From positions 1-64,000 of the IMG/VR virus record IMGVR_UViG_3300042453_003743: a DNA stretch of 64,000 nucleotides; one strand, written 5' to 3'. Origin of the DNA: a virus. The notes beneath the pieces were generated by a model that ran no database searches, was not told the DNA's origin, and saw nothing but the letters and a program-made list of their open reading frames with translations. The position numbers and the translations under genes were made by a program. Shown piece after piece: positions 13,801 to 51,331 of the stretch (position 1 is the first letter of the stretch; each line of letters opens with the position of its first letter).

Positions 13801-15259
13801 GAACGCCTTGTGTTCCCGATCCTATTGCGCCTTGAATTCCTTGACGACCTTGTACCCCCTGTGCTCCAACTGCTCCCTGTGCGCCAAGTGTTCCTTGGGC
13901 ACCAAAAGATCCTTGCGCTCCAACAGAACCTTGAACTCCTTGCACCCCCTGCACACCAGATTGCCCCTGTATACCTTGGGCACCTCTTCGCCCATCAAAT
14001 CCTACAGGACCTACTGATCCCGGGATACCTTGAGCTCCAGTGCCGCCTTGAATTCCTTGCGGTCCTTGTCTTCCTTGAACTCCTTGTAGCCCCTGAGAAC
14101 CTTGAACTCCTGCACTACCAGCAACTCCTTGCAATCCTTGAGCCCCAACAAGTCCCTGAATGCCCTGCAGACCAGATGAACCCTGCAGCCCAGCAAAGCC
14201 TTGAATTCCCTGAGAACCAAAGCCAGCGGATCCTTGCAATCCTTGAAGACCTTGAGCGCCACCTGCGCCTTGTATTCCTTGACGACCTTGAATTCCCTGT
14301 ACACCTTGAACACCTTGAACACCTTGGGATCCATTAGATCCGGCAGAACCTTGTATGCCTGCAGATCCTTGAATGCCCTGAGAACCAACGCCAGACGATC
14401 CTTGTAAACCTTGAACACCTTGGGTTCCCTGTGTACCTTGTCTTCCTTGAATTCCCTGAGCACCATTTATACCTTGTAAACCAACAGAACCCTGTAGTCC
14501 CTGTGCTCCTTGTGAGCCATTAGTTCCTTGAATTCCTTGAATACCTTGCGGGCCTCGACGCCCATCAAATCCAACGGGTCCAACTGCTCCGGGGATTCCT
14601 TGCAATCCTAATGATCCCTGTGTTCCCTGACTTCCTTGTATTCCTTGGGACCCAACAGACCCCTGAAGTCCAGAAGATCCTTGAATTCCAGCAAACCCCT
14701 GAATACCCTGAGCACCAGTATTTCCAAGAGAACCATTTGAACCTGCACTACCTTGAAGACCGATAGACCCCTGAATACCTTGCGATCCAAAGCCTGCAAC
14801 ACCTTGAACGCCTTGAACACCCTGTGTGCCCACAGTACCCTGACTGCCCAAAACTCCTTGCACACCCTGTGTTCCTTGTGTACCACGGCGACCGTCGAAT
14901 CCTGCGGGACCAACAGATCCTATAAAACCTTGGTTGCCTTGGACACCTTGAACACCAAGAAAACCTTGTATTCCTTGAATTCCCTGAATACCTTGAACAG
15001 TCTGTACGTTTAAATATGCTACATTCCACACCCAATTTCCAGGTGTGCCGGTGAGATAATAGTATGTTGTATTTGCTACAACATATACAATCATACCCAC
15101 CTCTCTGCGCTCGTCTGGAATGCTGTCTCTATCAGCGAGAGTGGCAACAGTTCTTAGACCACCTAATCCATATATTGGTTTAGTAACAGGATAAGTATCA
15201 GTCGAATCAAACGGACTGATGAAACCTCCAATTGGTACTCCACCTGGTATTTCAGCCAT
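7856..15259 (-). CDS. Giant modular collagen-like fibre protein (2467 aa)
   Basis: Residues 1-90 are a globular N-terminal virion-attachment type domain. Residues about 90-1385 are an almost unbroken Gly-X-Gln collagen-like array (GIQG, GVQG, GSQG, GRQG) punctuated by the module marker [10 protein letters not shown]. Residues about 1385-1883 are a globular insertion that contains a dockerin/EF-hand-like loop (D-x-N-x-D-G-x-V-x-x-x-D near 1740-1760). Residues about 1883-2078 are a second collagen array with one more GYDGRRG marker, and 2078-2467 a cysteine-containing globular C-terminal domain, likely the receptor-binding tip. No prolyl-hydroxylase substrate pattern is obvious because Gln, not Pro, dominates the third position. 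It is one intact reading frame despite the extreme repetition. Neighbouring collagen-like genes suggest a multi-part fibre. Confidence 0.85.
9025..9610. repeat. Second collagen-coding repeat tract
   Basis: Short tandem degenerate 9-nt units encoding Gly-X-Gln triplets inside the giant fibre gene. Near 9060-9200 an about 50-nt unit (CCTTGTGGGCCTTG...CCTGTAGA) is repeated almost identically at least three times. One GYDGRRG marker lies near 9300-9325. The tract is coding and is expected to vary in length by slippage or recombination. Confidence 0.8.
11100..15000. repeat. Main collagen-coding repeat tract with spaced GPVG(F/Y)DGRRG modules
   Basis: About 3.9 kb of coding DNA made of degenerate 9-nt units (complements of CCTTGAATT/CCTTGTATT and variants). 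The unique marker encoding [10 protein letters not shown] or close variants recurs near 11437, 12108, 12720, 13340, 13990, 14555 and 14893. The spacing is mostly about 560-670 nt, the last interval being shorter. This suggests block duplication of roughly 200-residue modules. Confidence 0.8.
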
Positions 15260-16717: not shown

Positions 16718-17938
16718 TTATAATTTTACAGTCTGAGCCTTCTCTAGATCTACATTTAGAGTAGTTTTATTCTCTAAATTTTTAATTTTTTGTTCCTGTT
16801 CGGCTTTCATTTTTTCTTGATTTTGATTAAATTCTGCAATAGCCTTTAAGTAGACTTCTTTATTTTTTTCAATTCTTGGTCGGTGTTCTTCTGGCATGTA
16901 AGGCTCCGATAGAAGTTTTTCACATGCTGCTAGACCCATATGAATTTTTCCAACATAAAATGCTGTTGTAGAAATTTCATCCAAAATTCCCCATTGATAT
17001 ACTGCTTTGTCAACAAACAAAATATCATCTTTTGGAATGGGAATCGTCAATGCCTGAGCAGCAGCCATAAACGCGTTTCTTGGTCTTTCGTATTTTCTAT
17101 AGATGCAAGAAAGGTGATACAGCGCTTCGGCGCGATTTGGCCTTGCTTCATAAGATCTTAAGAAAGCATCGGTAACTTGTTCTTGTGGCTTGCCCATGAT
17201 CTCACGGCATATTCCAACACGAATCCAAGAATAGAACACTTCTTCTGGCCAACTTCCCATTTCAATTCTTCTAAGATATTCTTTTTCAGCTACTTCAAAA
17301 AGCTGCGCATCAAATGCAGATTGTGCTGCATAGAATTGCTTTCTCACTGAAGAAGGATCTTTTTCAAGATATTTTTTTAGTAAGAAGTAATCTCTCGCGT
17401 ATTTTTCTCTGTCACTATTAACTTCTCTTGAACGACAACCCTCAGTACGAACGTTCCACGAATAATTTCCTTCAAGTCTCTCAACCTTCATTGGCTGTTC
17501 GCAAATTGCGTATTCGTGCAAAGGCTCTTCGTACCACCAAAGTTTTTTGGCAAGATTGAAGACTTGGGCGCGATACCATACCATATTTCCACGGGAAATT
17601 TTTACAACATAACCATCTAGATCATCATTGAAAGAATCTACAGGAAGTGTTCCTTCGATAGTGTCGTCAGCATCAATCATCAGAGCCCATTTTGTTTTAC
17701 CATGACAGTGCTTTAAAACTTGTGACCGATTTGTTCCAAAGTCTTCCCATTTATGATCTAAAATTTCACCGGGAATGTTTTTCTTTTCAAAAAAATCTTT
17801 GATTAATTGTTTTGTGTTATCTACAGATCCGGTGTCTGCGATTACATAATAATCAATATATGGTGCGACTGACTCCAAGCATCTTTCGATATTTGGAGCC
17901 TCATTTTTTACGATCATTGCTAATGTTAATTTGTGCAT
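16718..17938 (-). CDS. Family 2 glycosyltransferase with TPR-like C-terminus
   Basis: The N-terminal GT-A domain starts LTLAMIVKNEAPNIERCLES, has the donor-binding ADTGSVDNT strand near residue 36 and a DxD metal site (MIDADDT) near residue 90. The C-terminal half contains helical repeats (ALYHLSCIYRKY..RNAFMAAAQAL) of TPR type and ends with a coiled Glu/Lys-rich tail. Such proteins transfer sugar to an unknown acceptor. Start choice: the in-frame ATG at 17944 sits directly against an AAGG, while the ATG at 17938 has that AAGG at normal spacing, so 17938 is preferred. It is the last gene of the replication operon, 3 nt after RegA, and is followed by a terminator. It may act with the sugar cluster at 24-32 kb. 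Confidence 0.8.
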   Translation of the reverse strand: MHKLTLAMIVKNEAPNIERCLESVAPYIDYYVIADTGSVDNTKQLIKDFFEKKNIPGEILDHKWEDFGTNRSQVLKHCHGKTKWALMIDADDTIEGTLPVDSFNDDLDGYVVKISRGNMVWYRAQVFNLAKKLWWYEEPLHEYAICEQPMKVERLEGNYSWNVRTEGCRSREVNSDREKYARDYFLLKKYLEKDPSSVRKQFYAAQSAFDAQLFEVAEKEYLRRIEMGSWPEEVFYSWIRVGICREIMGKPQEQVTDAFLRSYEARPNRAEALYHLSCIYRKYERPRNAFMAAAQALTIPIPKDDILFVDKAVYQWGILDEISTTAFYVGKIHMGLAACEKLLSEPYMPEEHRPRIEKNKEVYLKAIAEFNQNQEKMKAEQEQKIKNLENKTTLNVDLEKAQTVKL

Positions 17939-17946
17939 TTTCATCC

Positions 17947-24355: not shown

Positions 24356-24979
24356 TTATTTTTTTAATAGAAAAATGGCACATCCATTCCACCACGTATT
24401 TGCATCCGGATAATCAGTAAAATATTCTATCTGTTTATATATTTTTAAATTTAAATCTTGTATAGCTCTGTTTGTGCCTTTTCGAACTTGTTCCCAATTC
24501 CAATCATCTACTATAAATATAAAACAATCATTTAAACTGTCGTAGTAATACTTCAAAGCATTGTATTGATCTATTTCATCATGTGGTCCATCAAAAAAAT
24601 AAACATCAATATTTTTAATATTGTATTTCTCTAAATCTAGAGAAAAACAGTCAGCGTCTATTATATTACACGATTTATTTAAAAATTTTTCAAAATTATT
24701 TTTAAATTCATCTTTTGGCCCATCAAATAAAGAAAAATTATCTATTAAAAAGTAATTTGACAAATTATTATTTTCATATAGAGCAGATATGCAAGTAGAA
24801 CCCTTCCAAACACCAATTTCAAGATAGTTTTTTATAGATTCTTCTTTTAATAAATTATTTAATAAATTTTTAAAAAATTTACCAGACATACCTTCAATTT
24901 GAAAAATTGATTCGGGTAAAGAAGATTTTAAATAATCAATATTATTTAATATATTTGTAAATTTATCTAGTTTATTCAT
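24356..24979 (-). CDS. Class I SAM-dependent methyltransferase (207 aa)
   Basis: Rossmann-type methyltransferase: motif I NYLEIGVWKGSTCISALYEN, a following acidic strand FLIDNFSLF, then VYFFDGPHDE (motif II-like) and IFIVDDWNWEQ. The HDE and DDW residues resemble the Methyltransf_24 group, whose members often modify sugars. It is the last gene of the ten-gene AT-rich sugar cluster, 2 nt after the C-methyltransferase. Substrate unknown; an O-methylation of a surface or DNA-linked glycan is a guess from context. Confidence 0.8.
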   Translation of the reverse strand: MNKLDKFTNILNNIDYLKSSLPESIFQIEGMSGKFFKNLLNNLLKEESIKNYLEIGVWKGSTCISALYENNNLSNYFLIDNFSLFDGPKDEFKNNFEKFLNKSCNIIDADCFSLDLEKYNIKNIDVYFFDGPHDEIDQYNALKYYYDSLNDCFIFIVDDWNWEQVRKGTNRAIQDLNLKIYKQIEYFTDYPDANTWWNGCAIFLLKK

Positions 24980-24981
24980 TT

Positions 24982-26208
24982 TTATTTTAAACTTTCTATT
25001 TTTAATTTTGGAAAAAAAGAAATAACTTTGTAATCATACATTTTACAAAAAGACAATTTGTTTACTTCTTCTTTAATATTTTTTACTATTTCATCATAAA
25101 AATTCCAAGCAAGTGGTAAAAATACTGTATTATTAGCCAACAATTTAATAGAATCTTTTGATAATATTATAGTATTGCTTCCCGGTGTTAACATATTTTG
25201 TTTTAATGGATTATCATCGATTATAAAATGTAATTTTATATCCGCTGCATTTAAAAATGTGTTACCTTTAGCTGCAGCCCCATAACCAACAACCAAATAT
25301 CCCTTTTTCTTATATTCGTCAATAGTTTTTTTTGTATCTTTAATAATTTTTAAAACTGATTTTTTATATTCTTTATATCTTTTTTTATTATATCTTTTAT
25401 TTTTCTTTTCTAATTTTAAACTTTCATCAACAGATTTATTTAAATTTTTTATTTTAGAAATTTTAAAAATATAGCTTCCACCATGAATTGGAACTCTTTT
25501 TACATCATTTAAATATAAACCAACTCTACTGCATAACTTTTGCATAGATAATGTTGAAAAAAAAGATAAATGTTCATGATAAATTGTATCAAATTGATTA
25601 TTTTCTATCATGTCTGCCTGTGATGTTTGAATATACAAATTGCTTTCGTCTTTCATTAATTTTTTACAACAAGTTAAAAAATCAACAACATCATTTGTAT
25701 GCGCAAAAACATTTTGTGCAATAATCACATCATAATTTTTATTTGGTAATTTTTTTATTGCAGTTTCATTAAAATAATCTTCCACAACATAATGGGCATT
25801 TTTTGATGAAATGTGAATTAAATTCTTTGCTGGATCAATCCCATGTGCCACCCATCCTTTATTTTTAAATTTTAAAAGCTGCGTTCCATCGTTACAAGCT
25901 ATATCTAAAACAGAACCACATTTATTTTCTTTTTCTACCATTTCTACAAACCATTCAAAATAATCATGTAAAGTTTTAGATGTGCCACTAACATATAGAT
26001 AATTTAAAAACATTTTGTCGGGATCTACTACGCATGATAGCTGGGTGTGGAAACAATCGTAACAAACATTTATAGCTAATGGATATGAATCTAATTGTGA
26101 AGTACCATCGTGGTAGCTATTTGCCAGTGGCTGAGTTTTTAAATCTAAAACTTTATTTAAATTTTTTTTACCGCAACATCTGCAAAAATTTATAATTTTA
26201 TGTGACAT
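24982..26208 (-). CDS. Zinc-containing sugar C-methyltransferase-like protein (408 aa)
   Basis: Three-part layout of nucleotide-sugar C-methyltransferases. An N-terminal zinc-binding part has paired cysteines (CRCCGKKN and later CYDCFHTQL). A SAM domain has motif I SVLDIACNDGTQLLKFK followed by GIDPAKN. The C-terminal Rossmann-like part has VVGYGAAAKGNTFLNAA and IDDNPLKQNMLTPG. This family (Methyltransf_13/11/14) makes branched deoxysugars from dTDP-keto sugars. Good AAGG ribosome-binding site. It stands next to an epimerase/dehydratase, consistent with a pathway for a modified sugar donor. All domains appear complete. Confidence 0.88.
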   Translation of the reverse strand: MSHKIINFCRCCGKKNLNKVLDLKTQPLANSYHDGTSQLDSYPLAINVCYDCFHTQLSCVVDPDKMFLNYLYVSGTSKTLHDYFEWFVEMVEKENKCGSVLDIACNDGTQLLKFKNKGWVAHGIDPAKNLIHISSKNAHYVVEDYFNETAIKKLPNKNYDVIIAQNVFAHTNDVVDFLTCCKKLMKDESNLYIQTSQADMIENNQFDTIYHEHLSFFSTLSMQKLCSRVGLYLNDVKRVPIHGGSYIFKISKIKNLNKSVDESLKLEKKNKRYNKKRYKEYKKSVLKIIKDTKKTIDEYKKKGYLVVGYGAAAKGNTFLNAADIKLHFIIDDNPLKQNMLTPGSNTIILSKDSIKLLANNTVFLPLAWNFYDEIVKNIKEEVNKLSFCKMYDYKVISFFPKLKIESLK

Positions 26209-26209
26209 A

Positions 26210-27148
26210 TTAACCTTCGTAATTAAATGGTGTATTTCGATTCGTTAAAATCATTTTATTTTTATATTTTAATAAATCTTCTAATATAGTATCGCAACTT
26301 TCCGAAAAAACAAAATTAAATTCTTTTTCAAATTTTTGACAACACAATGAAAAATTATATTTACTAGAAATAAGTTTTTCATTAATAGAATTTTTATTAT
26401 ACTCTTTTGGATCTACCAATTCTAGTTTGCAATTTAAATGTTTTGACACATTTTGCGCAATTTCTCCAGATGTTAAAGTGAATGATGCTAAATTGTATAT
26501 TCCAGATTTGGCATTTTTCGAATTTATAATAGATTTTATGGCATTCACTAAATCTTTTATCCCCAAAATTGATCTTTTTGTTGATTCGTTAAATAAAAGA
26601 ACTTTATTATTTTTCCAAAAACTAGATACCATTGCATTTATCATGACATCATCCCTTAAAACGGGAGAATAACCATTAACCGTGCCAAATCTTAAACCAA
26701 AAAATTTTGGTTTTGGGTTTATAAGTGTAATATAACTGTCTATAGTTTGTTTTGTAAAATCATACATGTTATATGGTTTTCCAAAATTATAGTCTTCCCT
26801 TACGGATTCTATTGAACAATCACCATAAACACTACCACTACTGGCATAAATTAGTGTTTGAGATTCGTTCATTTTAGATACCAATGAAATAAAATTTCTA
26901 ACATTATTGTTAAAAACTGTTTCTGGAAATGAATCACACATCCTAACACTGGAATGGCCTGCCAAAAGAATTACATCACTAAATTGTTTTAAAAAATTAG
27001 AATCTATTTTATTATAATCAATTTTATAATTTAATAAATTTGTGGTAGAAAAAAGTTCTAAATCTAGAGATGTAATCGGATAATCTAAATCTTGTGTTAA
27101 TCTAGAACCAATATAACCTTTTGCTCCTATAATAAGTATATTTTTCAT
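26210..27148 (-). CDS. NAD-dependent sugar epimerase/dehydratase (extended SDR)
   Basis: Extended short-chain dehydrogenase: nucleotide-binding GAKGYIG at residues 8-14, the active-site serine strand YASSGSVYGD near 101-110 and the catalytic YxxxK (Y129, K133 in MYDFTKQ). The C-terminal substrate part includes FGLRFGTVNGYSP. Such enzymes epimerise, reduce or dehydrate NDP-sugars. The exact substrate cannot be read from sequence. It is 2 nt from the C-methyltransferase gene; together they would build an unusual deoxysugar donor for the cluster's glycosyltransferases. Confidence 0.87.
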   Translation of the reverse strand: MKNILIIGAKGYIGSRLTQDLDYPITSLDLELFSTTNLLNYKIDYNKIDSNFLKQFSDVILLAGHSSVRMCDSFPETVFNNNVRNFISLVSKMNESQTLIYASSGSVYGDCSIESVREDYNFGKPYNMYDFTKQTIDSYITLINPKPKFFGLRFGTVNGYSPVLRDDVMINAMVSSFWKNNKVLLFNESTKRSILGIKDLVNAIKSIINSKNAKSGIYNLASFTLTSGEIAQNVSKHLNCKLELVDPKEYNKNSINEKLISSKYNFSLCCQKFEKEFNFVFSESCDTILEDLLKYKNKMILTNRNTPFNYEG

Positions 27149-27156
27149 AATAATTT

Positions 27157-27870
27157 TTATTTTATTAAATCACTGATCGTATAATATATATCTATATTAT
27201 GTTTGTAACCGGTTACAAAATAATAATGATAAATTGATTCTATTTCTTCTTTTGTAAAAATATTACTGGATACATCTTTTCTATTAGAATGTATGATAGT
27301 GGGTTTCATTGCCAAAATTGTTTTTCCTAGATAAACATCTTCTGGATATTCTGTATTGTTGGCAATAAAATCTAAATGTTGTGGTAAATTTTTTATAATT
27401 TGCTCTATTATATTTCTTGATATGAGCAATCCAGAACCTGATAAATATAATTCATTGCCTGTATATGTTCCCAAAACAGAAGATACTATATTTGTATTAT
27501 TTAATAAATTTTTAGAAAAACTGTTTAAAATTTTTAAATTTATAAAACTTCCCGTGTGCGTTCTAAAATAAAATTGATGATCCGTTTTTAAAAAATCTAT
27601 CATATTTGATAAAGTTTTGTAGAGCATTTTGGAGCCAATTCCATCTGGAACATTATAAAAAATATCAATAGAATCTATTATTGGATTTTGGTTTAAAAAA
27701 TCATCATAGTTTATAGATTTTAATTCGGTATCACCATATATAAAATGAACTTCATCACCGGGTATCAAAGTTTTTACCCAAGTTTCTTTGCATGCTTCTA
27801 TTTGTTTTTTCCACAGTTCATTTCTTTCTTCATCTGTTTTTTTACATGCTATTGCTGCTATATAAATCAT
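27157..27870 (-). CDS. GT31-like glycosyltransferase with altered DxD site (237 aa)
   Basis: Resembles the beta-1,3-galactosyltransferase (GT31) pattern: a RxxLWKKQIEACKETW-type start, the block YNVPDGIGSKMLYKTLS, and the late motif YPEDVYLGKT near residues 175-183 that corresponds to the GT31 EDVYxG. At the usual DDD metal site the protein reads YFRTHTGSFINL, so the acidic residues are absent. It may be metal-independent, inactive or a binding protein. It lies between a methyltransferase and the SDR gene in the AT-rich cluster. Family call is from motif order. Confidence 0.6.
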   Translation of the reverse strand: MIYIAAIACKKTDEERNELWKKQIEACKETWVKTLIPGDEVHFIYGDTELKSINYDDFLNQNPIIDSIDIFYNVPDGIGSKMLYKTLSNMIDFLKTDHQFYFRTHTGSFINLKILNSFSKNLLNNTNIVSSVLGTYTGNELYLSGSGLLISRNIIEQIIKNLPQHLDFIANNTEYPEDVYLGKTILAMKPTIIHSNRKDVSSNIFTKEEIESIYHYYFVTGYKHNIDIYYTISDLIK

Positions 27871-27871
27871 T

Positions 27872-28564
27872 TTAAATCTTTTTTGCTAAAACCCAAGTCT
27901 GTGCTTGGCATACTGGATCATATTTTAATAAACCATTTTCATCAAGAACTTCTTTATAAGTACACCAATCGCCATGGGTAAAAATATAATCAATATATTT
28001 TTTATTTCCCCAATAGCCACATTCTAAAACTTCAAATCCTGAAGATTCTACCAAAGCACACAATCCATTTGGAGTGTATCCATTAAAATGTATTGGAGTC
28101 ATGTGTGGAATATTTATTGTTGGAACTGTGATATAAATAAAACCATTGTCTTTTAAATGTTCTTTTATTTTTAATAAAGCTAAAATAGGAGTATGTAAAT
28201 GCTCTATTGTCTGATTAACTAAAACAAAATCATAGTTTTTATTTTCAAGATTTAATGTGTGTAAATCGTGGTTAGGATATTCTGCGTTTGTTTGGTTTTT
28301 ATAATTTAAATATCTTAACTCTGGATCGGCTGAACATGTTGATAATAAATTCTCCCCGGTTTCAATATTATATTTTTTTATCCATTCTTTAAAATCTATA
28401 ATAGAAACTACTCTGGGGGGATCCATTTTTGAATAGCGATTCAATTCTTCTGAACTTAAACAATCTTGAAGTTTTTCAAATTTTTTAAAATAAGAGTAAG
28501 GTTTTACTACAAATTTATGATATAATTCTTCCGTATAATTATTTGTTAAAAAATTAATTTTCAT
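27872..28564 (-). CDS. Methyltransferase-fold protein with degenerate SAM loop (230 aa)
   Basis: The middle and end follow class I methyltransferases: NYDFVLVNQTIEHLHTPILALLKIKEHLKDNGFIYITVP is the classic post-motif strand and helix, followed by HFNGYTPNGLCALVESSGFEVLE. Where motif I (Asp-x-Gly-x-Gly) is expected the sequence is LLSTCSADPELRYL, with no glycine-rich loop. It could still bind SAM in a variant way or be a non-catalytic relative. It overlaps the end of the upstream glycosyltransferase gene by 11 nt. Confidence 0.65.
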   Translation of the reverse strand: MKINFLTNNYTEELYHKFVVKPYSYFKKFEKLQDCLSSEELNRYSKMDPPRVVSIIDFKEWIKKYNIETGENLLSTCSADPELRYLNYKNQTNAEYPNHDLHTLNLENKNYDFVLVNQTIEHLHTPILALLKIKEHLKDNGFIYITVPTINIPHMTPIHFNGYTPNGLCALVESSGFEVLECGYWGNKKYIDYIFTHGDWCTYKEVLDENGLLKYDPVCQAQTWVLAKKI

Positions 28565-29372
28565 TTTTTTTCTTTATTTTGTTTATCCACCATGAAGCAT
28601 TTAACATTTCACAATTCCATTTTATGGAATTATATTTTTCATAAGTTTTATTCAGCAAGTCTTCATTTAATTCATCATAAGAATTTAAAAAAAGTATTGG
28701 AAGATTATTTTCTAAATTATCGTGAGTTTTATGTCTAATAACTACCGGTATGACATTTGAATATAATGCCTCCCACATTCTATGTGTATCTATTCCATTT
28801 CCACGGGGGCACAAAATAAATTTATGATCAATCAATTCGTTTTGATATTCTTCAATTGTTTTGATTGATTCTGGATTTCTTGTGGTAGCCCAAGTTTTAT
28901 TTAAAAATTTATTGTAAAGTGGTTCTCTTATTTGTGGATAAGTAGATATTCTATGATTTATATAAAGTAATTTTTTTGGTGCAATAGATTTTTTAAATTT
29001 TTTTAATGTTATATTACAATAAGAGTTTGCAATACCTATTGGAATCGAATTTGCATTCTGTGATTCACAATTTATACCCCACCAAGAAAGATTTTTATTA
29101 TTAAATGACGAAATTATGTCGTCGGTCAAAGAATAATCGCTGTCATGCGTTATAATATTTAATTTTAAATTATTTAAAGAAAAATTTTCTAAACAATTTT
29201 TTAACAAATAAATATAATCCGTTTTACAAAAAATGATATTTCCATCACTTAATTTTGGAAGTGTTTCTGCAATATAAAAATTTGGCATTCCATTTTTTGA
29301 TTTTGTTTGTGCAAAAATAAAATCACATTTTTGTGCTAAATTTTCACCACATATAAATTCGTCATTAATCAT
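28554..29372 (-). CDS. Exostosin/GT-B-like glycosyltransferase (272 aa)
   Basis: The C-terminal half has the pattern of exostosin-like or GT47-type enzymes: LLYINHRISTYPQIREPLY, then KFILCPRGNGIDTHRMWEALYSNVIPVVI, where the Cys-Pro-Arg-Gly-Asn-Gly and Arg-x-x-Glu-Ala residues form the nucleotide-sugar site. The N-terminal half is less conserved. Likely transfers a sugar to a glycan built by the cluster. It overlaps neighbours at both ends, showing operon structure. Donor and acceptor unknown. Confidence 0.75.
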   Translation of the reverse strand: MINDEFICGENLAQKCDFIFAQTKSKNGMPNFYIAETLPKLSDGNIIFCKTDYIYLLKNCLENFSLNNLKLNIITHDSDYSLTDDIISSFNNKNLSWWGINCESQNANSIPIGIANSYCNITLKKFKKSIAPKKLLYINHRISTYPQIREPLYNKFLNKTWATTRNPESIKTIEEYQNELIDHKFILCPRGNGIDTHRMWEALYSNVIPVVIRHKTHDNLENNLPILFLNSYDELNEDLLNKTYEKYNSIKWNCEMLNASWWINKIKKKNEN

Positions 29373-30094
29373 TTTAAATTTAAAATATTGAGTAAAGTAT
29401 TTATATCATTTTTATATAATTCAATTGGTCTTAGTGAATGGCAATCAATATATTGTTCTTTTTCAAGTCGCCTTACATCATAATTCCAAAAAACTCTATC
29501 AATTCTATTTGAAGCAATTCCATAATTCCATCCACGATTTAATTTTATAATTTTACTCTGATCGTGGTATGTATCAATTTTATTTCCAAAGTATAATTCA
29601 TCAGTATCCCAACCAAAACCAAACGATAATAATCTTTCACAGTATTCATTAAAAGAACAATTTAAATCCAAAAGATTATAAAAAAAACTTCCTTTTGCAG
29701 CATTATAGCATATTGGATATCTTGATTGGTTTTTATAAGCATCTGAAGAAAAAATTACAATAGAATCGTCGGAATATGGTTTTGTTGTTTCTAAAAAATA
29801 TTTTTTAGAAATTGGAAACATATCTATGTCAGAAGTTAAACATATTTGTTCGGAATAATATTTTGTAACATACATCCGAGCTATTTGAGCTTGAAACCCA
29901 GAATCTATATTTGGTATTTTTTTTATATAATGAATTATACAATCATCTGAGTTTTCTATTTTTTCTTGATCATCTATGAGACATAATATAGGTTTTATTC
30001 CTATATGTTTATTCCAAAATAATTTAGTAAGTTCCCAAAAATTTTTATATAATGGGGTTTCGTTTGATGAAACTATGCTATAATCAATTTTCAT
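29369..30094 (-). CDS. Putative GT-A glycosyltransferase (241 aa)
   Basis: Carries a strand and DxD-like metal site QICLTSDIDMFPISKKYF near residue 88, preceded by QAQIARMYVTKYY, an arrangement common in GT-A sugar transferases. The later FGFGWDTDELYFGNK holds a second acidic pair. No closer family was recognised. Start and stop overlap neighbours by 4 nt. Role in glycan building is inferred from the DxD and the cluster. Confidence 0.6.
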   Translation of the reverse strand: MKIDYSIVSSNETPLYKNFWELTKLFWNKHIGIKPILCLIDDQEKIENSDDCIIHYIKKIPNIDSGFQAQIARMYVTKYYSEQICLTSDIDMFPISKKYFLETTKPYSDDSIVIFSSDAYKNQSRYPICYNAAKGSFFYNLLDLNCSFNEYCERLLSFGFGWDTDELYFGNKIDTYHDQSKIIKLNRGWNYGIASNRIDRVFWNYDVRRLEKEQYIDCHSLRPIELYKNDINTLLNILNLK

Positions 30095-30861
30095 TTTTTT
30101 AATTCATCTAAAATATATCTTGCATCTGAATAATTTTTACAACCATGAAATAAAAAATATTCGACTGGACAGTTATATTTAATATAACCTTCTCTTATCA
30201 TTTCCCCCGGATTTAAACCTTTAATATAATCTTTATAACATTCCCACCACGGAAAGTAATTGTAACCTATATCTTCAGTAAATCCATGTTTTGTTGCAAG
30301 TGCATTCACTAAACCTTCATCTTCTGCATAAAACCAAATATTGTGTTTTATAGCATATTCTAAATTCCATATCATATCATCTATAAACCACATATGTTTT
30401 TTTGTATTAAAAACACAATTAGCAAAAATATAATTTATTTGTGGTTTATTTTCAGTAAAAATTTTAATAAATTCTTTTAATTGTTCTTTATTTTCTGGAT
30501 TTTCAAATGGATTGTGGGGATGTTTTGCAAATAAAGGATAATTTATAGTGTTTAATTTTTCATAATTTTTATAAAAAATATTATCTACTTCTTTTGTTGC
30601 AATCATATCACAATCTAATATTAAACAATAGTCAAATGGATTATTTTTTAATCCAATCCATTTTTGTGCATGTATATTCATCCTATTTACATTTTCTAAA
30701 TTTATTTTTTCAGTAATAACTTTACTAGAATTAAAATTATAATCAAAATTTATTGTATTAACTTTAATTTTAAAAGTACTAAATTCTTTTATTGAATCTA
30801 CTAAAACTTCCAATAAAGGTAACCAATTTTCGGTCGCAAAAGTAACAAATCCACAATTCAT
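30091..30861 (-). CDS. Putative GT8-like glycosyltransferase (256 aa)
   Basis: Starts GFVTFATENWLPLLEVLVDSI, like GT-A enzymes that recognise a nucleotide in the first strand. It has the metal motif YCLILDCDMIATKEVD near residue 85, and later WFYAEDEGLVNAL. This order fits GT8 or related families. It sits between two other putative sugar transferases with ATGA overlaps. Metal-binding Asp residues are intact. Substrate unknown. Confidence 0.65.
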   Translation of the reverse strand: MNCGFVTFATENWLPLLEVLVDSIKEFSTFKIKVNTINFDYNFNSSKVITEKINLENVNRMNIHAQKWIGLKNNPFDYCLILDCDMIATKEVDNIFYKNYEKLNTINYPLFAKHPHNPFENPENKEQLKEFIKIFTENKPQINYIFANCVFNTKKHMWFIDDMIWNLEYAIKHNIWFYAEDEGLVNALATKHGFTEDIGYNYFPWWECYKDYIKGLNPGEMIREGYIKYNCPVEYFLFHGCKNYSDARYILDELKK

Positions 30862-41416: not shown

Positions 41417-41968
41417 TTAAGTTAATGGCGTCAATCGATCATCATCACCACCAGCAAACAATTCAATATAATCATACACAATGATGACGTTAAAAGTATT
41501 TAACAAATTGTTTGAAGACATGTTTAATGCCAAGGGATCAATAGATGTTGGCCAGCAGCCATGCATTCTAAATTGTTTTAGCGGCTCTCCCTGATCATTT
41601 ATGTTGAGGTGTTTTACAGTCCAGTTGTCGGCTTTGTAAGACTGGGTTGTATTTAAAATAGAAGATTTGTTGGTATTGTGTTCGTTGATTATATTTTGCC
41701 ATGTGTGAAACATTGACCACAAATTTTTTCCCTGCCCCGTATCATCCAAAATACTAAATGACCACGTAGAATATTGTTTTTCTCCGGGATAATAATATTT
41801 TCTTCCAAAATGTGAGTATTCAATCGTAGTTGAAGAGAGCTGTGGTATTTGTGTTGATCTTACGTGAAATTTAGTAAAAGCCCCCCCACCGGGTATTGTT
41901 CCTGTGATTTCAAACCTATTGGCCCTTGTTCCACCACTAAAGTTTGTTTTAAATTCATTTAAACTCAT
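41417..41968 (-). CDS. gp19: Tail tube protein gp19, copy 1 (183 aa)
   Basis: Tail-tube family: EFKTNFSGGTRANRFEITGTIPGG, FHVRSTQIPQLSSTTIEYSHFGRKYYYPGEKQYSTWSFSILDD, WTVKHLNINDQGEPLKQFRMHGCWPT. Rings of this protein form the inner tube of the contractile tail. Length is near T4 gp19 (163). It is the second of two adjacent homologous tube genes, starting 4 nt inside the end of the other. Which copy is the main tube subunit is not decided. Confidence 0.88.
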   Translation of the reverse strand: MSLNEFKTNFSGGTRANRFEITGTIPGGGAFTKFHVRSTQIPQLSSTTIEYSHFGRKYYYPGEKQYSTWSFSILDDTGQGKNLWSMFHTWQNIINEHNTNKSSILNTTQSYKADNWTVKHLNINDQGEPLKQFRMHGCWPTSIDPLALNMSSNNLLNTFNVIIVYDYIELFAGGDDDRLTPLT

Positions 41969-42513
41969 AATGAAGCTCCATTATTGATCCCTGAAGTTAT
42001 TTCCATATGGTCATAAGTCAAAGACACGTTAAAAGCTACAAAATTAGTTTCGCCCATGTTTAAATTTATGTCACCCACAACGTTTGGCCAACATTTAAAC
42101 AAATTAATTTGTCTTATAGGTGTTCCATTCAAATCAAGTTGTTTAATTGTCCAAGTTGTTTGAAGAGACGCATAAGCATAATCGTTGTTTAACACTTTGT
42201 GTGAATAGTGTCCATCCAAAGATTCTTTCCACTTGTTAAAGCACCTCCAAAGACTAGTTGTATCGCCGTCATCATAGACACCAACAATCCATGGTTCGTA
42301 TGTTCTATCTCCAGCATAAGTTATAGTTCTTCCTCTGTAAGGAATTCCTATAGTATTAATTTTTGCTCTTGGCAAAGAAGCGGATACAATTTTAAATTTT
42401 AAATGGTTTGCTGGTGGTGAGATGCCTGTTGGCCAAACAGCTGAAACTTCAAATCTGTTAGGACGACTACCACCATTAAATTGATTTTTAAAATTTACTA
42501 GAGAATTGCTCAT
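41965..42513 (-). CDS. gp19: Tail tube protein gp19, copy 2 (182 aa)
   Basis: Parallel block order to the neighbouring tube gene: NFKNQFNGGSRPNRFEVSAVWPTG, IPYRGRTITYAGDRTYEPWIVGVYDDGD, WTIKQLDLNGTPIRQINLFKCWPNVVGDI. The two are clear paralogues that have diverged strongly. It follows the sheath gene directly, the usual position of gene 19. It could be the main tube subunit or a specialised ring. One-base overlap with the gp18 stop. Confidence 0.88.
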   Translation of the reverse strand: MSNSLVNFKNQFNGGSRPNRFEVSAVWPTGISPPANHLKFKIVSASLPRAKINTIGIPYRGRTITYAGDRTYEPWIVGVYDDGDTTSLWRCFNKWKESLDGHYSHKVLNNDYAYASLQTTWTIKQLDLNGTPIRQINLFKCWPNVVGDINLNMGETNFVAFNVSLTYDHMEITSGINNGASL

Positions 42514-45491: not shown

Positions 45492-45924
45492 CTTGGATCA
45501 CCTCAGCATCAACAACATCTTTATTGGTGCTTCTTTCTTTGTTCAACAAGTTTTGAAGATCTTTTGTCGAACCAACAAAAACTGAATTGTTTGTTTGTTT
45601 TATTTCTACTTTTGAACTAGTAGTATCTTTTGCTTTTTTATGTACATCTAAAACATTATTATTTAAATCTGCCATCGTTTTGAGTAATATGGCAACCACC
45701 TCAAATGCCCTTGGGCTATCGGATTCGGTTGCAACTTTTAGTGCACTTTCAAGAGCAACACTACCCGTTCCAATTAAATTTTTTAAATTTTCTTGAACCA
45801 ATTTATAATCTTTATCAAAATTTCCAGAATCAAATGTGCCACCCTGTATGGGTTTTTCTGAGGCTGGTAGTTTTGTTTCTGGTATAGAAAAAAATTGTGC
45901 TAAATTTTTATTAATATGCATCAC
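45475..45924 (-). CDS. gp16: Terminase small subunit gp16
   Basis: 149 residues, helical: LVQENLKNLIGTGSVALESALKVATESDSPRAFEVVAILLKTMADLNNNVLDVHKKAKD is the central helical region of the gp16 family, which forms rings and regulates gp17 at DNA ends. T4 gp16 is 164 aa. Starts with tandem ATG codons inside the end of gp15 and ends inside gp17. No problem residues seen. Confidence 0.9.
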   Translation of the reverse strand: MMHINKNLAQFFSIPETKLPASEKPIQGGTFDSGNFDKDYKLVQENLKNLIGTGSVALESALKVATESDSPRAFEVVAILLKTMADLNNNVLDVHKKAKDTTSSKVEIKQTNNSVFVGSTKDLQNLLNKERSTNKDVVDAEVIQDEKRE

Positions 45925-46606
45925 TTATTCCAAAAGAATTACCATCTCCGCCAAGCCCTTCTATATTTGCTGCCATGCTTCCCAAAGTTGTTGTCGGAAC
46001 TGTTTTTCCAAAAATATATGCTTTTGCAACAAAACTAAAAGAGGAGATATTTATTCTTCTTGTAGAAAAATCACCATCAAATCTTTCACTTAAATTATTT
46101 GGACCCATGACAATAGGAACAATAACATCTTTATTTACATCGCTATAATCTAGTTTTATAATATGATCAGGTACAAAGTATGGCATTATTTGTTCTACAA
46201 TTTGCATTGTATCGTCAGTGTGCCGAGTATATATGTATAAATTAAAATTTAAGTTTACGGGTATTTCGTTTGCTATTGAATAACCGCTTGGCTGGCAATT
46301 TCCAGCTGGACCTGTAGTTGGACTATACTGCGTAAGTCTTCCTTTTTTTCTTGAGGGGTCTGGAACGATTCCACTCATTATATAACTCATTCTGGGCAGC
46401 TGATTCTCTATTCTTGTTCCTTCGCTTATAGAAGACGGGTTTAAATATCTTTGTATAAATTTTTCTTGAGATGCATAAGCAAGTGGAACCTTTATTTCTT
46501 TAAAAGATCCATCACTTTCTGAGTGTCTTACACTAATATTATTAAATAGAGTTCCAAAAGCAACTACTATTTTTTTTAAATTTTGGTTATATATGTAACT
46601 AAACAT
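45911..46606 (-). CDS. gp15: Proximal tail sheath stabiliser gp15
   Basis: 231 residues (T4: 272) with the T4 gp15 pattern: FSYIYNQNLKKIVVAFGTLFNNISV at the start, KVPLAYASQEKFIQRY, then LNLYIYTRHTDDTMQIVEQIMPYFVPD and RRINISSFSFVAKAYIFG. It caps the tail and joins it to the neck. It is separated from gp14 by the large RCC1/protease gene, an unusual insertion. C-terminal tail shorter than in T4. Confidence 0.93.
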   Translation of the reverse strand: MFSYIYNQNLKKIVVAFGTLFNNISVRHSESDGSFKEIKVPLAYASQEKFIQRYLNPSSISEGTRIENQLPRMSYIMSGIVPDPSRKKGRLTQYSPTTGPAGNCQPSGYSIANEIPVNLNFNLYIYTRHTDDTMQIVEQIMPYFVPDHIIKLDYSDVNKDVIVPIVMGPNNLSERFDGDFSTRRINISSFSFVAKAYIFGKTVPTTTLGSMAANIEGLGGDGNSFGISDAY

Positions 46607-46618
46607 TTATTTTTCCGT

Positions 46619-49600
46619 TTAATCGAAAGGATTATTGATATCAAAGTTTATTTCTTCTGCTTTTTGATCTAGCACATCATTTATACCAGCAGTAGTTCCT
46701 AAAATATTATTTTTAGGGATAATATAATTTTTAATACCATAATATTGTATATCAGAATCATTTGTGCTGGATATAATATACGCCGAAGCTCCTGTATAAC
46801 TAAAACTTCCAGTTATTCCTGTAATTTTGATAACATTATTGTTTACTTGCTCTATAATACCTTCAGCCAATGTGATTTGATTATCGACTATAAGTGATCT
46901 TTGTGTTATTCCTTGAGCGTAAAAAGGAGTATTATTTGGTAGCTGTGAAGTAATACCTGGGAAAGGATTTAAAGTTACACCATCAAAATAAATTGTTGGT
47001 ATTCTTATTGGTGGTTCGTTCGGTATTTTTTGTGGGGTTAAAGACGGCAGAGCTTCACTTATTGGTGTTGATCTTACATCTATATCAATTTTTACAATAA
47101 GCTCTTCTTTTGGAACACCCTTGGATTCCATAAAATTATTTAAAAATGCCACTGCCTCATCTGGCATTTCTATGAACGAATGATATCCGTTAGAGAATAT
47201 ATGATTGGTGAATGTAGTCCACGGTGGAGCAAGCATAATTGTTGGCTGGTGTGTTACACCAGATATCACATTATAGTAAGCGGTATGCCCCAAACCCTGA
47301 ATAAAAAATGGACTTCCGCTATCTCCGACAAAAGCCTCATATCCGCATTGATGTGGTTCTATGTCGCTTCTTGCTGGCATTACTGTCTCTAACAGGTAGT
47401 ATGTTATTCCAGAAGTAATGCCCGTTATAGGTTCAGCATTACCGGCAAAGAAATATTCATCATTTGTTTCTTTAACTTTTAATGATCTGGTAGATACAAG
47501 CCTTTCCTGTCCGTCTATTCCCCACACTCTTCTTCCTATATGTTTTTGATAATTTACAGTACCATAATTTTCTGAAACTAATGGATAAAAATTTTTGTAA
47601 ACAGCTACGGGAAAATCAATTGTTTTTCTTCCAGTAAAATTTTTAAATTTTGCCCATTTATTATAAATTGCTATTTTTGATAATTCGTCATTTTTTAAGG
47701 GCTGATCTAATTCATATAGGTACAAATCATACGGGTGATAAGGCAAACCAAAAATATCTGGAGGAAGTGGAATCAACCCAGCTTCGCTGTTTACTTGTGT
47801 CAAATCTCTGCTTATAATAGAATTATCATGCAGCATCCATTTTACATTATTAACTTGTAAGTTAGGTCCTGCATAATGAGCACAGGCCAGAGCAAATTTT
47901 CTATTAATTAATATAAAACACCAATACCCAGAGTTGTGTGTATTGACATCTACTCTGTAGGGATCTATTATATTCGCCCCATACGAAAGTGGGAATGCGT
48001 CATAAAAAGGCAAGTAATCCGCACCCAATCGCCGTGGCCGCATAGAACAACCACTAAAATCAATTTTATTATAACTGTCGTGAACTAAAAGATTATTTAG
48101 GGGATCTCTGTATTCTAACCAAGTGGTATCATTTTTTGCAATTGGCCATATTTCTGTATAATATGGCCTGGGTTCTAATGCAGAAGATTTATATTTAAAT
48201 CTATCATGTAGTTTTTCTGTATATCCACTTTCAAAAGTAAGTCTTGCAGGGGAAGGAACTGATTTTGGTTGTGATTCGTATTTATCAAATGTGTTTAAAT
48301 GTTTTTTTGCTATTGCTACCGCTTCCCGGGTTTTGGGGATGCTAAAGCCTGGACCGGCAACATCATCCCATCCAAGATTATTAAAATTGTACAAAGCTAT
48401 TGTAGAATTTTTACCACAAATAATTTTTTTTACATTTTCTCCGTATGTTACTGGATATGCATACCAGTGTGAATGCCAAGTTCCTTGCTCTCTGGTTAAT
48501 GAATACTGATTATCTGAAATAGTTCTCCATAAGGTTCCGCCTTTTTCTGGTGGAGATACAGGAGTATCTAATTGATTATATGTGTTTCCACCCCAACAAA
48601 TTACATTCTTGTTTTTAGTCAACAATACAGTGTGGTCCATACCACCAGATATTTGAAACCCCCCCGTACCAACTGTCTCGGGCACAGTGCACTGACCAGA
48701 TGCAGTCAAGCCCCAGCAGACAACAGTTCCATCCGTTTTTACTGCCATGCTATGGTAATACCCGCTACCTATACTAGCTACACCACTAAGTCCAGCCGGA
48801 ACAGAACATTGTGAATGTGTGTTTCCACCCCAACAAACAACGGTTCCATTTTCCTTGAGAGCAACAGTGTGGTCTAAACCACATGCCAGTTGTATAACTT
48901 TACTTTCCAAAGCCATTCCGTTTTCTTCAGCACTGTCTAAATCCAATCCCGCTGGAATGTTAATTCTTCCATTTGCAGTGGAACCCCACGCAATTATTCT
49001 TCCATTTTCAAATAAGGCGATTGAGTGACTTGCTCCAGCAACAATTTGTTTTAAATTTCCAGTGTAAAGTGCACCAACTGGTACATTGCATTGTCCCGAT
49101 TCATTGGCACCCCAAGCGTACAGTGTATACCCGTAACCCATTAAAAAATGGTTTTTTCCTGCGGCTATTAAATTATATTTTTCTTCGCTTGTTATTAATG
49201 GCAAACCACCAGTTCCGCCACTTGTTTCTAAACATATATTTGGATCCATTGCCCACGTATATTGTCTGAACACACCCTGTGATATTGGTGTATACAATTG
49301 CTCGACTGAAAAACTGGATCCAAAACTATTATAAAGCGTGTAATATTTTGAAACAAATTCGGGGATAGGTGCCCCGCCAGTCATTCCTTCTTTGTTTACA
49401 AATACAATCGCCGCACATCTACCAGTTTTTATACAGGAACTTTGGTTCAATTCAGTAGTACACAATGGTTCGTTATACTGATCGACAAAGCCAGTAACAT
49501 AAGCCCATTCAAAAATTTGAGGCGAACCGCCTCCTCCCGTCGAATCAAAAGAATCTATATTTCTTATACCTATCCCAAAACCACTATTTTCGCCCATTAC

Positions 49601-49849
49601 AAAAGATTTTATGTCAAGTTGTTCATAGCGTGGAAAAATTGCTGGCTCTAAAGAGGTATTTGTAAAATTGACACCCAACACGTTTACAGAACCTTGGGGA
49701 TTATTAATTTCTTCTAGCACATAGTGATTTCCAAAAGAAAAATCTTTTGTTGCATTATTTTTTCCAAAATCACCCCAAGCCATGAATGTTGTAAATTCAT
49801 TACCCGGGTATCCACCAGTTATACCATAATTTCTATAAAATACTGCCAT
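46619..49849 (-). CDS. RCC1-repeat protein fused to a trypsin-like serine protease (1076 aa)
   Basis: N-terminal half: at least five RCC1-type blades with the pattern AxGxxHxxAL..NGxVxxWGxNxxGQxxVP (about residues 225-430: YAWGANESGQCNVP, IAWGSTANGRINIP, VCWGGNTHSQCSVP, VCWGLTASGQCTVP, ICWGGNTYNQLDTP), plus outlying WG motifs near residues 25 and 480, suggesting a full beta-propeller. C-terminal half: a chymotrypsin-fold protease with His in FALACAHYAG (about 658), Asp in HPYDLYLYEL (about 707) and Ser in FVGDSGSPFF (about 842). The order and spacing fit an active triad. No signal peptide or membrane helix. It lies between neck genes gp14 and gp15 with a good GGAG site, so it is probably a late virion protein. 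Substrate unknown. Confidence 0.85.
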   Translation of the reverse strand: MAVFYRNYGITGGYPGNEFTTFMAWGDFGKNNATKDFSFGNHYVLEEINNPQGSVNVLGVNFTNTSLEPAIFPRYEQLDIKSFVMGENSGFGIGIRNIDSFDSTGGGGSPQIFEWAYVTGFVDQYNEPLCTTELNQSSCIKTGRCAAIVFVNKEGMTGGAPIPEFVSKYYTLYNSFGSSFSVEQLYTPISQGVFRQYTWAMDPNICLETSGGTGGLPLITSEEKYNLIAAGKNHFLMGYGYTLYAWGANESGQCNVPVGALYTGNLKQIVAGASHSIALFENGRIIAWGSTANGRINIPAGLDLDSAEENGMALESKVIQLACGLDHTVALKENGTVVCWGGNTHSQCSVPAGLSGVASIGSGYYHSMAVKTDGTVVCWGLTASGQCTVPETVGTGGFQISGGMDHTVLLTKNKNVICWGGNTYNQLDTPVSPPEKGGTLWRTISDNQYSLTREQGTWHSHWYAYPVTYGENVKKIICGKNSTIALYNFNNLGWDDVAGPGFSIPKTREAVAIAKKHLNTFDKYESQPKSVPSPARLTFESGYTEKLHDRFKYKSSALEPRPYYTEIWPIAKNDTTWLEYRDPLNNLLVHDSYNKIDFSGCSMRPRRLGADYLPFYDAFPLSYGANIIDPYRVDVNTHNSGYWCFILINRKFALACAHYAGPNLQVNNVKWMLHDNSIISRDLTQVNSEAGLIPLPPDIFGLPYHPYDLYLYELDQPLKNDELSKIAIYNKWAKFKNFTGRKTIDFPVAVYKNFYPLVSENYGTVNYQKHIGRRVWGIDGQERLVSTRSLKVKETNDEYFFAGNAEPITGITSGITYYLLETVMPARSDIEPHQCGYEAFVGDSGSPFFIQGLGHTAYYNVISGVTHQPTIMLAPPWTTFTNHIFSNGYHSFIEMPDEAVAFLNNFMESKGVPKEELIVKIDIDVRSTPISEALPSLTPQKIPNEPPIRIPTIYFDGVTLNPFPGITSQLPNNTPFYAQGITQRSLIVDNQITLAEGIIEQVNNNVIKITGITGSFSYTGASAYIISSTNDSDIQYYGIKNYIIPKNNILGTTAGINDVLDQKAEEINFDINNPFD

Positions 49850-49852
49850 TCG

Positions 49853-50500
49853 TTAATCTCCGAAAGTAAAGGTTGAGTAAGGGAATACACCATCAGGGAG
49901 AGTTTGCATGGTTATACTATAACCAACCTCAAATTGACCACTACCATTACTTAGCACAAATTGCGAATCGTCTTGTGACTGCTTATAAACGATATCAATA
50001 TTATTATTTTTAGTATTGATTTTTTCGTAGCTGTATGTAAATAGTTCTGCAGTTATGACGTATGAATACAATTTTCCAAGGGGATATAGTGGATTTTCAT
50101 GTTCGACAAAATTTATTTCAAATAAAGATTTGGAAAGAGGAAAGTATATCAAATCCCCTTCTCTTGGCCTAGTTAATGTAACGTCATAATTTGATATTTG
50201 CTGCTTAAATCTTCGTCGTGCTAAAAGTAAATTTATTTTGTCTTTAATTTCAACACCAAATTGTGTTATTATATCCGTTCCCTCAAAACCTTTATAAGAT
50301 AAAATATACATTTCAACTGTATAAGTTTTTTCAAAAGAAGAAGCGGGATCTTCTCCAAAAATTTTATCAATGTTGAAATATTTTCTAGGAATATAAAGGC
50401 AATCCTGACCAGTTGCTTTTATCAATTCAACAGTGATATCCTCTACCAAATCTTGTTCGGAGTGTCTTTTTGTTAGATTTAGGTATGGATTTGTCGCCAT
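49853..50500 (-). CDS. gp14: Neck protein gp14
   Basis: 215 residues of the T4 gp14 family: LVEDITVELIKATGQDCLYIPRKYFNIDKIFGEDP, YILSYKGFEGTDIITQFGVEIKDKINLLLARRRF, DLIYFPLSKSLFEINFVEHENPLYPLGKLYSYVITAELF. With gp13 it closes the filled head and forms the tail-docking site. It is directly coupled to gp13 (3-nt gap, AGGA site). Close to the 256-aa T4 protein but shorter. Confidence 0.94.
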   Translation of the reverse strand: MATNPYLNLTKRHSEQDLVEDITVELIKATGQDCLYIPRKYFNIDKIFGEDPASSFEKTYTVEMYILSYKGFEGTDIITQFGVEIKDKINLLLARRRFKQQISNYDVTLTRPREGDLIYFPLSKSLFEINFVEHENPLYPLGKLYSYVITAELFTYSYEKINTKNNNIDIVYKQSQDDSQFVLSNGSGQFEVGYSITMQTLPDGVFPYSTFTFGD

Positions 50501-50503
50501 TTA

Positions 50504-51331
50504 TTATCCTATTAAGGGATCAACCGGTAGCTCTTGTGTTTTCAAGAGTGTTGCTTCTATTTCAGCAAGTTCTCTTACTGCATCCGACATCATTGCACCG
50601 GCATTTAACTGGGCTCCACCCGGCAAAGGAATTCCAGAAAACTTCATCAAATTTTGAGCCCACTGTTTTTTAAGAATAGCAGAAAAATATAATTTAAAGA
50701 CACGATCATTCCATATGTTTGGGTATTTTTCTGGATCTATTTTAACATATGTTTCTAAAAGAATATATTTTGTGCTAGAAAGTTTTGTATAGTCTGTTTC
50801 TAAGAAAAGCCTATTTGTTGTTTTGGTGTAAGTATAAGACATTGGATAATTAAAAATATTATCAACGTTGTTTATATAAGACATGGCTTCTATGTAAGAA
50901 GCCAGCGGTGCCATTGGATAACCAGTTTGATTAAAGTATATTCCAAAAAAATCAAATAAAGTCATCTGATATCTTAAATCAAACATGTAGTCCCCAATAG
51001 GATGGCTGGGTGCATATACTTTGCTAACAGTTCTTATGTCTTGCGCTCTTGGCCAATAGCCAGTAGATCCGTCTGCAAACGTTCTTAACTGAGCACCAAT
51101 TGCATCACCAAACGTAGAGACATCGAAAAATTTTTGAGCAATTTCTTGATTTGATACTTGGTGTGCAAACAAGGCTCTTTGATTAAAATCAAAATGCCTG
51201 TCGTACATATATTCTAGGGCTTCGTCCAAACGATCTTCAATTTGTTGGCTATCTACGTTTACCTGTATAACGGGATGCCCCAAATGTCTTAAGGTATAGT
51301 CAATAAATTCTTGTCGGTTTGCAATGGCCAT
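50504..51331 (-). CDS. gp13: Neck protein gp13
   Basis: 275 residues (T4: 309): FIDYTLRHLGHPVIQVNVDSQQIEDRLDEALEYMYDRHFD is the conserved N-terminal block, and the C-terminus PEKYPNIWNDRVFKLYFSAILKKQWAQNLMKFSGIPLPGGAQLN is also diagnostic. Forms the connector ring under the portal. A CATAAATA late promoter ends 5 nt before the ATG, with no Shine-Dalgarno, so the neck operon is predicted to begin as a leaderless message. Confidence 0.95.
   Translation of the reverse strand: MAIANRQEFIDYTLRHLGHPVIQVNVDSQQIEDRLDEALEYMYDRHFDFNQRALFAHQVSNQEIAQKFFDVSTFGDAIGAQLRTFADGSTGYWPRAQDIRTVSKVYAPSHPIGDYMFDLRYQMTLFDFFGIYFNQTGYPMAPLASYIEAMSYINNVDNIFNYPMSYTYTKTTNRLFLETDYTKLSSTKYILLETYVKIDPEKYPNIWNDRVFKLYFSAILKKQWAQNLMKFSGIPLPGGAQLNAGAMMSDAVRELAEIEATLLKTQELPVDPLIG

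Follow-up and report, generated by a model that had tools for sequence, protein, structure and literature searches.

Genetic arrangement of the neck locus

What is the function of a gene encoding a propeller and a putative protease, and why is it placed between two phage neck genes? This question is raised by a locus within a stretch of 64,000 nucleotides from a virus (positions 1 to 64,000 of the IMG/VR record IMGVR_UViG_3300042453_003743), here referred to as the window. An ORF on the minus strand (46619–49849, ATG at 49849) encodes a protein of 1076 amino acids, here named X, which is composed of an RCC1 propeller, a predicted chymotrypsin-fold protease and the C-terminus of gp14. A GGAG ribosome-binding site (49858–49861, minus strand) is located 8 nt before the ATG.

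The neighbouring genes are on the minus strand as well. A gp13-type neck protein (head-tail adaptor; 50504–51331, minus strand; phrog_211, 2.6e-30) is followed by a gp14 stub of 215 amino acids (49853–50500, minus strand; PF11649, 2e-40; phrog_679, head closure Hc2, 1.6e-61), by X and by gp15 (45911–46606, minus strand; PF16724, 1e-50; homology to T4, PMC12270204). According to Pfam and PHROG matches gp16 comes after gp15, and gp17 to gp20 appear to follow, judged from sequence and gene order only. Two tandem genes for ~180-aa proteins occupy the gp19 (tail tube) position (41417–41968 and 41965–42513, minus strand); the two proteins look like paralogues by eye only.

In T4-like phages the conserved head-closure protein gp14 sits where head and tail meet. 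Its gene is adjacent to that of gp15 in T4, P-RSM6, DLP6 and S-H38, and the gap between both was below 200 nt in 135 of 148 related loci holding both genes, a count in which some contigs occur more than once. An earlier sequence-only reading had placed the gene between gp14 and gp15, had described these two as usually adjacent in T4-like phages and had noted a strong ribosome-binding site. All three statements held; the strand, which it did not give, is minus.

Gene X carries the severed C-terminus of gp14

Alignment to intact gp14 of phages without X identified the last ~83 residues of X as the severed C-terminus of gp14. This part (residues 994–1076; 46622–46870, minus strand) comprises the last strands of a small beta-domain and a C-terminal arm, and is 61% identical to the end of the intact gp14 of contig L003. 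Based on gp14 alignments the arm, IPKNNILGTTAGINDVLDQKAEEINFDINNPFD, corresponds to residues 1044–1076 (46622–46720, minus strand). The first part of the same beta-domain was aligned to the end of the gp14 stub (49856–49975, minus strand), which terminates within ~40 residues of the beta-domain start and lacks the arm. The label beta-domain is a reading of the sequence with no structural model behind it.

The relatives L003 to L011 do not carry X. Their gp14 is 85–89% identical to the stub of the window but forms one chain (287 amino acids in L003 and L005), the last 83 residues of which are 57–61% identical to the last 83 of X. Further intact long forms were found in L092 (297 amino acids) and L134 (293 amino acids). 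Altogether, gp14 measures 287–297 amino acids in close relatives without X and 204–225 amino acids as a stub in X carriers.

Three states of gp14 can be distinguished. In most phages (~213–228 amino acids) a short linker connects the core and the C-terminal arm. The long forms carry a beta-domain of ~100 residues between core and arm, and a similar domain is present in gp14 of the cyanophages P-RSM6 and S-H38. In the third state this domain is interrupted within a loop: the stub closes with the first strands of the domain, X with the last strands and the arm, and propeller and protease stand between the two parts. All three states differ at one place, and every break was aligned to the same beta-domain region. 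The intact long forms of L003, L092, L134, P-RSM6 and S-H38 resemble stub plus X end in core, beta-domain and C-terminal motif, but are single polypeptides without propeller or protease. In S-H38 (Synechococcus phage; L189, 1441–2601) gp14 carries a smaller glycine-rich insert in this beta-domain region while the gene is unsplit. The loop therefore tolerates insertion and looks like an insertion hot spot.

The end of X matched intact gp14 with an E value of 4.5e-30 and was kept in every family member with a complete X. A search with intact gp14 in the 137-kb record of the window and in the 126-kb record of L093 returned only the stub and the X end, without a second copy. The split of gp14 and the gp14-derived C-terminus of X are shown at the sequence level. 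This C-terminus, which the sequence-only reading missed, argues more strongly than anything else for placing X at the neck.

T4 gp14 (PDB 9LU4–9LU7, 9MKB) has a core homologous to the stub of the window (E 1.7e-32). It is one chain, whereas the window encodes core and arm in separate genes, with propeller and protease in between. T4 gp14 forms a hexamer; its C-terminal region 178–256 is disordered in the free neck and makes extensive interactions with gp15 once the tail joins (PMC12270204, preprint). This gp15-binding region corresponds in position to the end of X (PMC12270204), and an FDxNNPF-like end is common to X and to gp14 of other T4-like phages. Based on position and this common end we infer that X carries the docking region in trans, with gp15 as presumed partner of the arm. 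The alignment of the T4 tail region to arms of the X type relies chiefly on position and on the short C-terminal motif.

The RCC1 propeller

The N-terminal half of X contains an RCC1 propeller (residues ~22–488; 48386–49786, minus strand), of which Pfam covers residues 228–487 while the degenerate N-terminal blades were assigned by eye. PF13540 matched with 4e-36 in four stretches (122 bits, cut-off 22) and WD40_RLD with 1.3e-35 over residues 228–487. The best relatives in the PDB were BLIP-II (1.5e-35) and UVR8. WG blade motifs at residues 246, 288, 340, 379 and 419 mark five clear blades. Seven blades can be inferred by eye if an N-terminal WG strand (25–26), a degenerate blade (84–117) and a closing strand (476–486) are added. 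Pfam detected the propeller in all 10 aligned X family members, so its presence is shown at the sequence level. Structure prediction of full-length X from a six-row alignment was uninformative (pLDDT 27).

The repeat sequence resembles that of BLIP-II, UVR8 and the phage RCC1 proteins of GAP32 (GAP_001) and phAPEC6. In contrast to X, no fusion to a protease or a neck protein has been described for any of these. The RCC1-domain protein GAP_001 was detected in GAP32 virions (PMC5259590), and virions of phAPEC6 contain two 'DNA condensation proteins' (PMC7247149).

The protease domain

A putative protease domain (residues 538–932; 47054–48238, minus strand) was delimited by domain alignment, a predicted model and fold matches. 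It is followed by a poorly conserved linker in the family alignment (residues 933–993; 46871–47053, minus strand). The putative catalytic residues are His658 (codon 47876–47878, in CAHY starting at 656), Asp708 (codon 47726–47728, in YDLYLYEL starting at 707) and Ser844 (codon 47318–47320, in GDSGSPFF starting at 842), all on the minus strand and in chymotrypsin order. H658, D708 and G842-D843-S844-G845 are invariant in the 10 aligned X members, in which only 118 of 1076 positions are invariant overall. The triad is also invariant in 18 relatives of the protease domain down to ~20% identity (18 invariant positions of 395). Conservation of the triad is shown at the sequence level.

An AlphaFold2 model of the domain, based on the wider domain alignment, reached modest confidence only (pTM 0.69, mean pLDDT 59). 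Its best Foldseek matches in the PDB were trypsinogen (7.7e-5), kallikrein and complement factor B, and 50 re-aligned matches were all trypsin-like domains (Z 10.3–11.6, rmsd 4.1–4.8, 198–217 residues). In the model the short helix that holds His658 follows a strand; Asp708 and Ser844 each precede one, Asp708 immediately. Trypsin places its His, Asp and Ser likewise on the secondary structure. A double beta-barrel chymotrypsin fold of the domain is likely, as predicted by this modest model.

Sequence profiles alone gave little support. The X sequence had no trypsin match in Pfam; weak matches were limited to the relative L168 with Trypsin_2 (0.042) and a thrombin-like enzyme (0.01) found with one alignment. 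When the widened alignment was used for a profile search of the PDB, the thrombin-like enzyme was not recovered and only two unrelated weak hits appeared. The assignment to the S1 family therefore rests on triad and fold. X shares triad order, GDSG and predicted fold with S1/PA-clan proteases, but identity is 10–15%, a Pfam trypsin match is lacking and long extra loops are present.

Activity of the protease is likely by inference, without activity data. No zymogen-type activation site was recognised in X, and the residue at the S1 pocket (Glu838 by count) differs among family members, so that the specificity cannot be predicted.

The sequence-only reading had proposed a propeller-protease fusion in the neck cluster with at least five RCC1 blades in the N-terminal half and the CAHY, YDLYLYEL and GDSGSPFF residues in chymotrypsin order in the C-terminal half; these claims held. 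It had named two observations that would refute it. Loss of the triad in homologues was not seen in the 10 full-length members or the 18 domain relatives. That the three residues might lie far apart was countered only indirectly, by the fold match and the secondary-structure placement and without distances.

Distribution and evolution of gene X

Viral contigs were scanned with gp14, X and the protease domain as queries. X was present in 12 records, namely the window and 11 contigs (L001, L012, L051, L054, L078, L079, L091, L093, L094, L110 and L163). Of these, L001 is nearly identical to the window, possibly the same virus. Ten sequences were aligned, the others being 31–38% identical to the window. 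The order gp14 stub, X, gp15 was found on every X contig that includes gp15. Since the same join occurs in 12 records, an assembly artefact was rejected.

In a tree of the gp14 core the X carriers were dispersed. L001 grouped with the long forms L003 and L005, L012 with short forms, L094 with the short form L102 (100/98) and L110 with the long form L134 (99/96). Given the well-supported branches, the state must have changed at least three times between X and long forms. X has thus been acquired, lost or exchanged on several occasions, presumably through recombination in the surroundings of gp14. The dN/dS over X was 0.30–0.47 in four pairs. As a separate observation, the closely related pair L054/L079 had a dN/dS of 1.47 in the protease region versus 0.53 over the propeller; substitutions were few and diversifying selection is possible.

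Neither X nor the protease domain had a relative in the bacterial and archaeal genomes scanned. In isolated phages only RCC1 matches were obtained, with no match above chance to the C-terminal half of X, its N-terminal part or the L168 protease.

Wider relatives of the protease were found in L168 and L170 (the same contigs as L201 and L202) at the start of a ~1030-aa protein. A large RCC1 protein immediately precedes this protein in L168, L201 and L202, and in L168 a baseplate wedge gene comes next. The unfused pair in L168 (40–8949) belongs to another phage group. The pair of propeller and protease thus occurs twice, once fused in X and once as neighbours (L168, L201, L202). Furthermore, L171 to L184 carry stand-alone proteins of the X protease family (~357 amino acids) with a dockerin-like C-terminus and no gp14 part. 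No signal peptide was evident in these, and some of the contigs carry a pilin-like gene and may stem from cells or plasmids instead of viruses.

A putative neck protein with a docking arm in trans

We propose that X is a neck structural protein which arose by insertion of propeller and protease into a loop of the gp14 beta-domain and which provides the docking arm in trans. We consider this reading likely, with a probability of roughly 0.72. An RCC1 propeller and a chymotrypsin-fold protease would have been inserted in the loop, a stop would have arisen in gp14, and a ribosome-binding site and an ATG for X, leaving gp14 as two genes. The C-terminus of X is inferred to complete the beta-domain together with the gp14 stub as a first anchor, although no complex model is at hand, and the arm may dock on gp15 like the T4 gp14 arm as a second. 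Given the gp14 hexamer, up to six copies of X per virion are predicted; these would ring the neck and be required for head-tail joining, with the binding propeller and the protease pointing outward. That X is a virion neck protein needed for head-tail joining is likely, a strong inference made without proteomics, structure or gp15-binding data.

With less certainty and by analogy, the protease may be active and cut host surface proteins during adsorption. Action on the host surface is favoured because two related arrangements exist outside the gp14 context, the propeller/protease pair next to a baseplate gene and the protease joined to a dockerin-like domain. The presence of an RCC1-domain protein in GAP32 virions (PMC5259590) supports surface action as well. 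Host-surface proteolysis is our preferred choice of substrate by analogy, and processing of the virion, including the X linker, its main rival. The three roles suggested previously, namely processing of virion proteins, cutting of host surface proteins and neck whiskers, remain undecided, with a neck appendage best supported.

Other phages with neck appendages are known, among them T4 with whiskers, XM1 with spikes and Milano with a collar (PMC10491603). T4 fibritin whiskers, XM1 collar spikes and the Milano collar share with X the expected place and a possible host-sensing role, but differ in fold. T4 fibritin is bound to gp13 rather than to gp14, and its gene precedes gene 13 (PMC12270204). 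Identity of X with T4 fibritin was rejected since no fibritin (wac) match was found in Pfam or PHROG profiles. A defence function of X was rejected as well, PADLOC giving no defence-system hits.

Alternative explanations

The best surviving alternative assumes the same anatomy, but the target of the protease is the virion itself, either while it is assembled or when DNA is released; substrates could be the X linker, gp14, gp15 or a further neck or tail protein. We regard this as possible. It is supported by the long unconserved linker 933–993 between protease and arm and by the position of X at the head-tail joint; phage morphogenetic proteases such as T4 gp21 exist. However, sister phages with intact gp14 and without X have the same neck gene order and need no X processing, and the protease also exists apart from gp14, both with dockerin-like ends and next to baseplate genes. 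A bolder reading, in which proteolysis by X (e.g. upon binding of the propeller to the host) cuts its own tether and helps to unlock the neck for DNA release, seems improbable.

Secondly, the protease domain could be catalytically silent and X only a binding or spacer appendage. In favour are the lack of a visible activation site, the varying S1-pocket position and the loss of activity in HGF and haptoglobin, two proteins of S1 fold among the fold matches of X. Against it, neither the triad nor the GDSG oxyanion loop varies at 31–38% identity or down to ~20%, and silent S1 domains usually lose the triad. We consider a silent domain unlikely.

Thirdly, X might be an ordinary inserted cargo gene outside the virion, with an incidental gp14-like end and a self-sufficient stub. 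The insert is gene-sized, has its own ribosome-binding site and varies in presence among close relatives. However, its end matches intact gp14 (E 4.5e-30) with no other copy, this end is kept in every complete X, and the break is confined to the same beta-domain region throughout, which makes this explanation very doubtful.

Finally, production of gp14 and X as one chain by stop-codon readthrough, frameshift or a split intein, for which the gp14 TAA followed in frame by CGA and the X ATG in the window might speak, is highly unlikely, as two in-frame stops separate the genes in L012, L051 and L078, the genes are out of frame in L054 and L079, each X in these contigs has its own start and Pfam found no intein family in the gp14 stub or in X.

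Implications of a proposed protease-bearing neck

In the open-licence literature searched on phage RCC1 proteins and virion chymotrypsin-like proteases nothing like X was described. A decorated T4-like neck is already known as a kind, while the split of gp14 by protease and propeller is unreported in that literature. To our knowledge, no chymotrypsin-type protease is known on a phage neck, and the earlier remark that a neck serine protease could not be matched to a known system stands within the literature searched.

If the proposed neck location of X is true, an essential symmetric joint accepts an insert of ~900 residues and serves as a display platform, a chymotrypsin-type protease is placed on the phage neck, and head-tail joining in X carriers depends in trans on a protease-bearing protein. 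Such a natural split protein would be usable for enzyme display on phage necks.

Further features of the window

Two collagen-like proteins are encoded in the window, one of 2467 amino acids (7856–15259, minus strand) with ~20 Pfam collagen stretches (2.9e-186) and one of 636 amino acids (5943–7853, minus strand) with four (1.7e-32). Both are unusually large for a phage and are probably fibres. Additionally, the regions 16718–17944 and 24356–30861 (minus strand) contain glycosyltransferase, methyltransferase, epimerase, exostosin-like and mannosyltransferase-like genes, which point to a possible sugar modification of the virion or its fibres.
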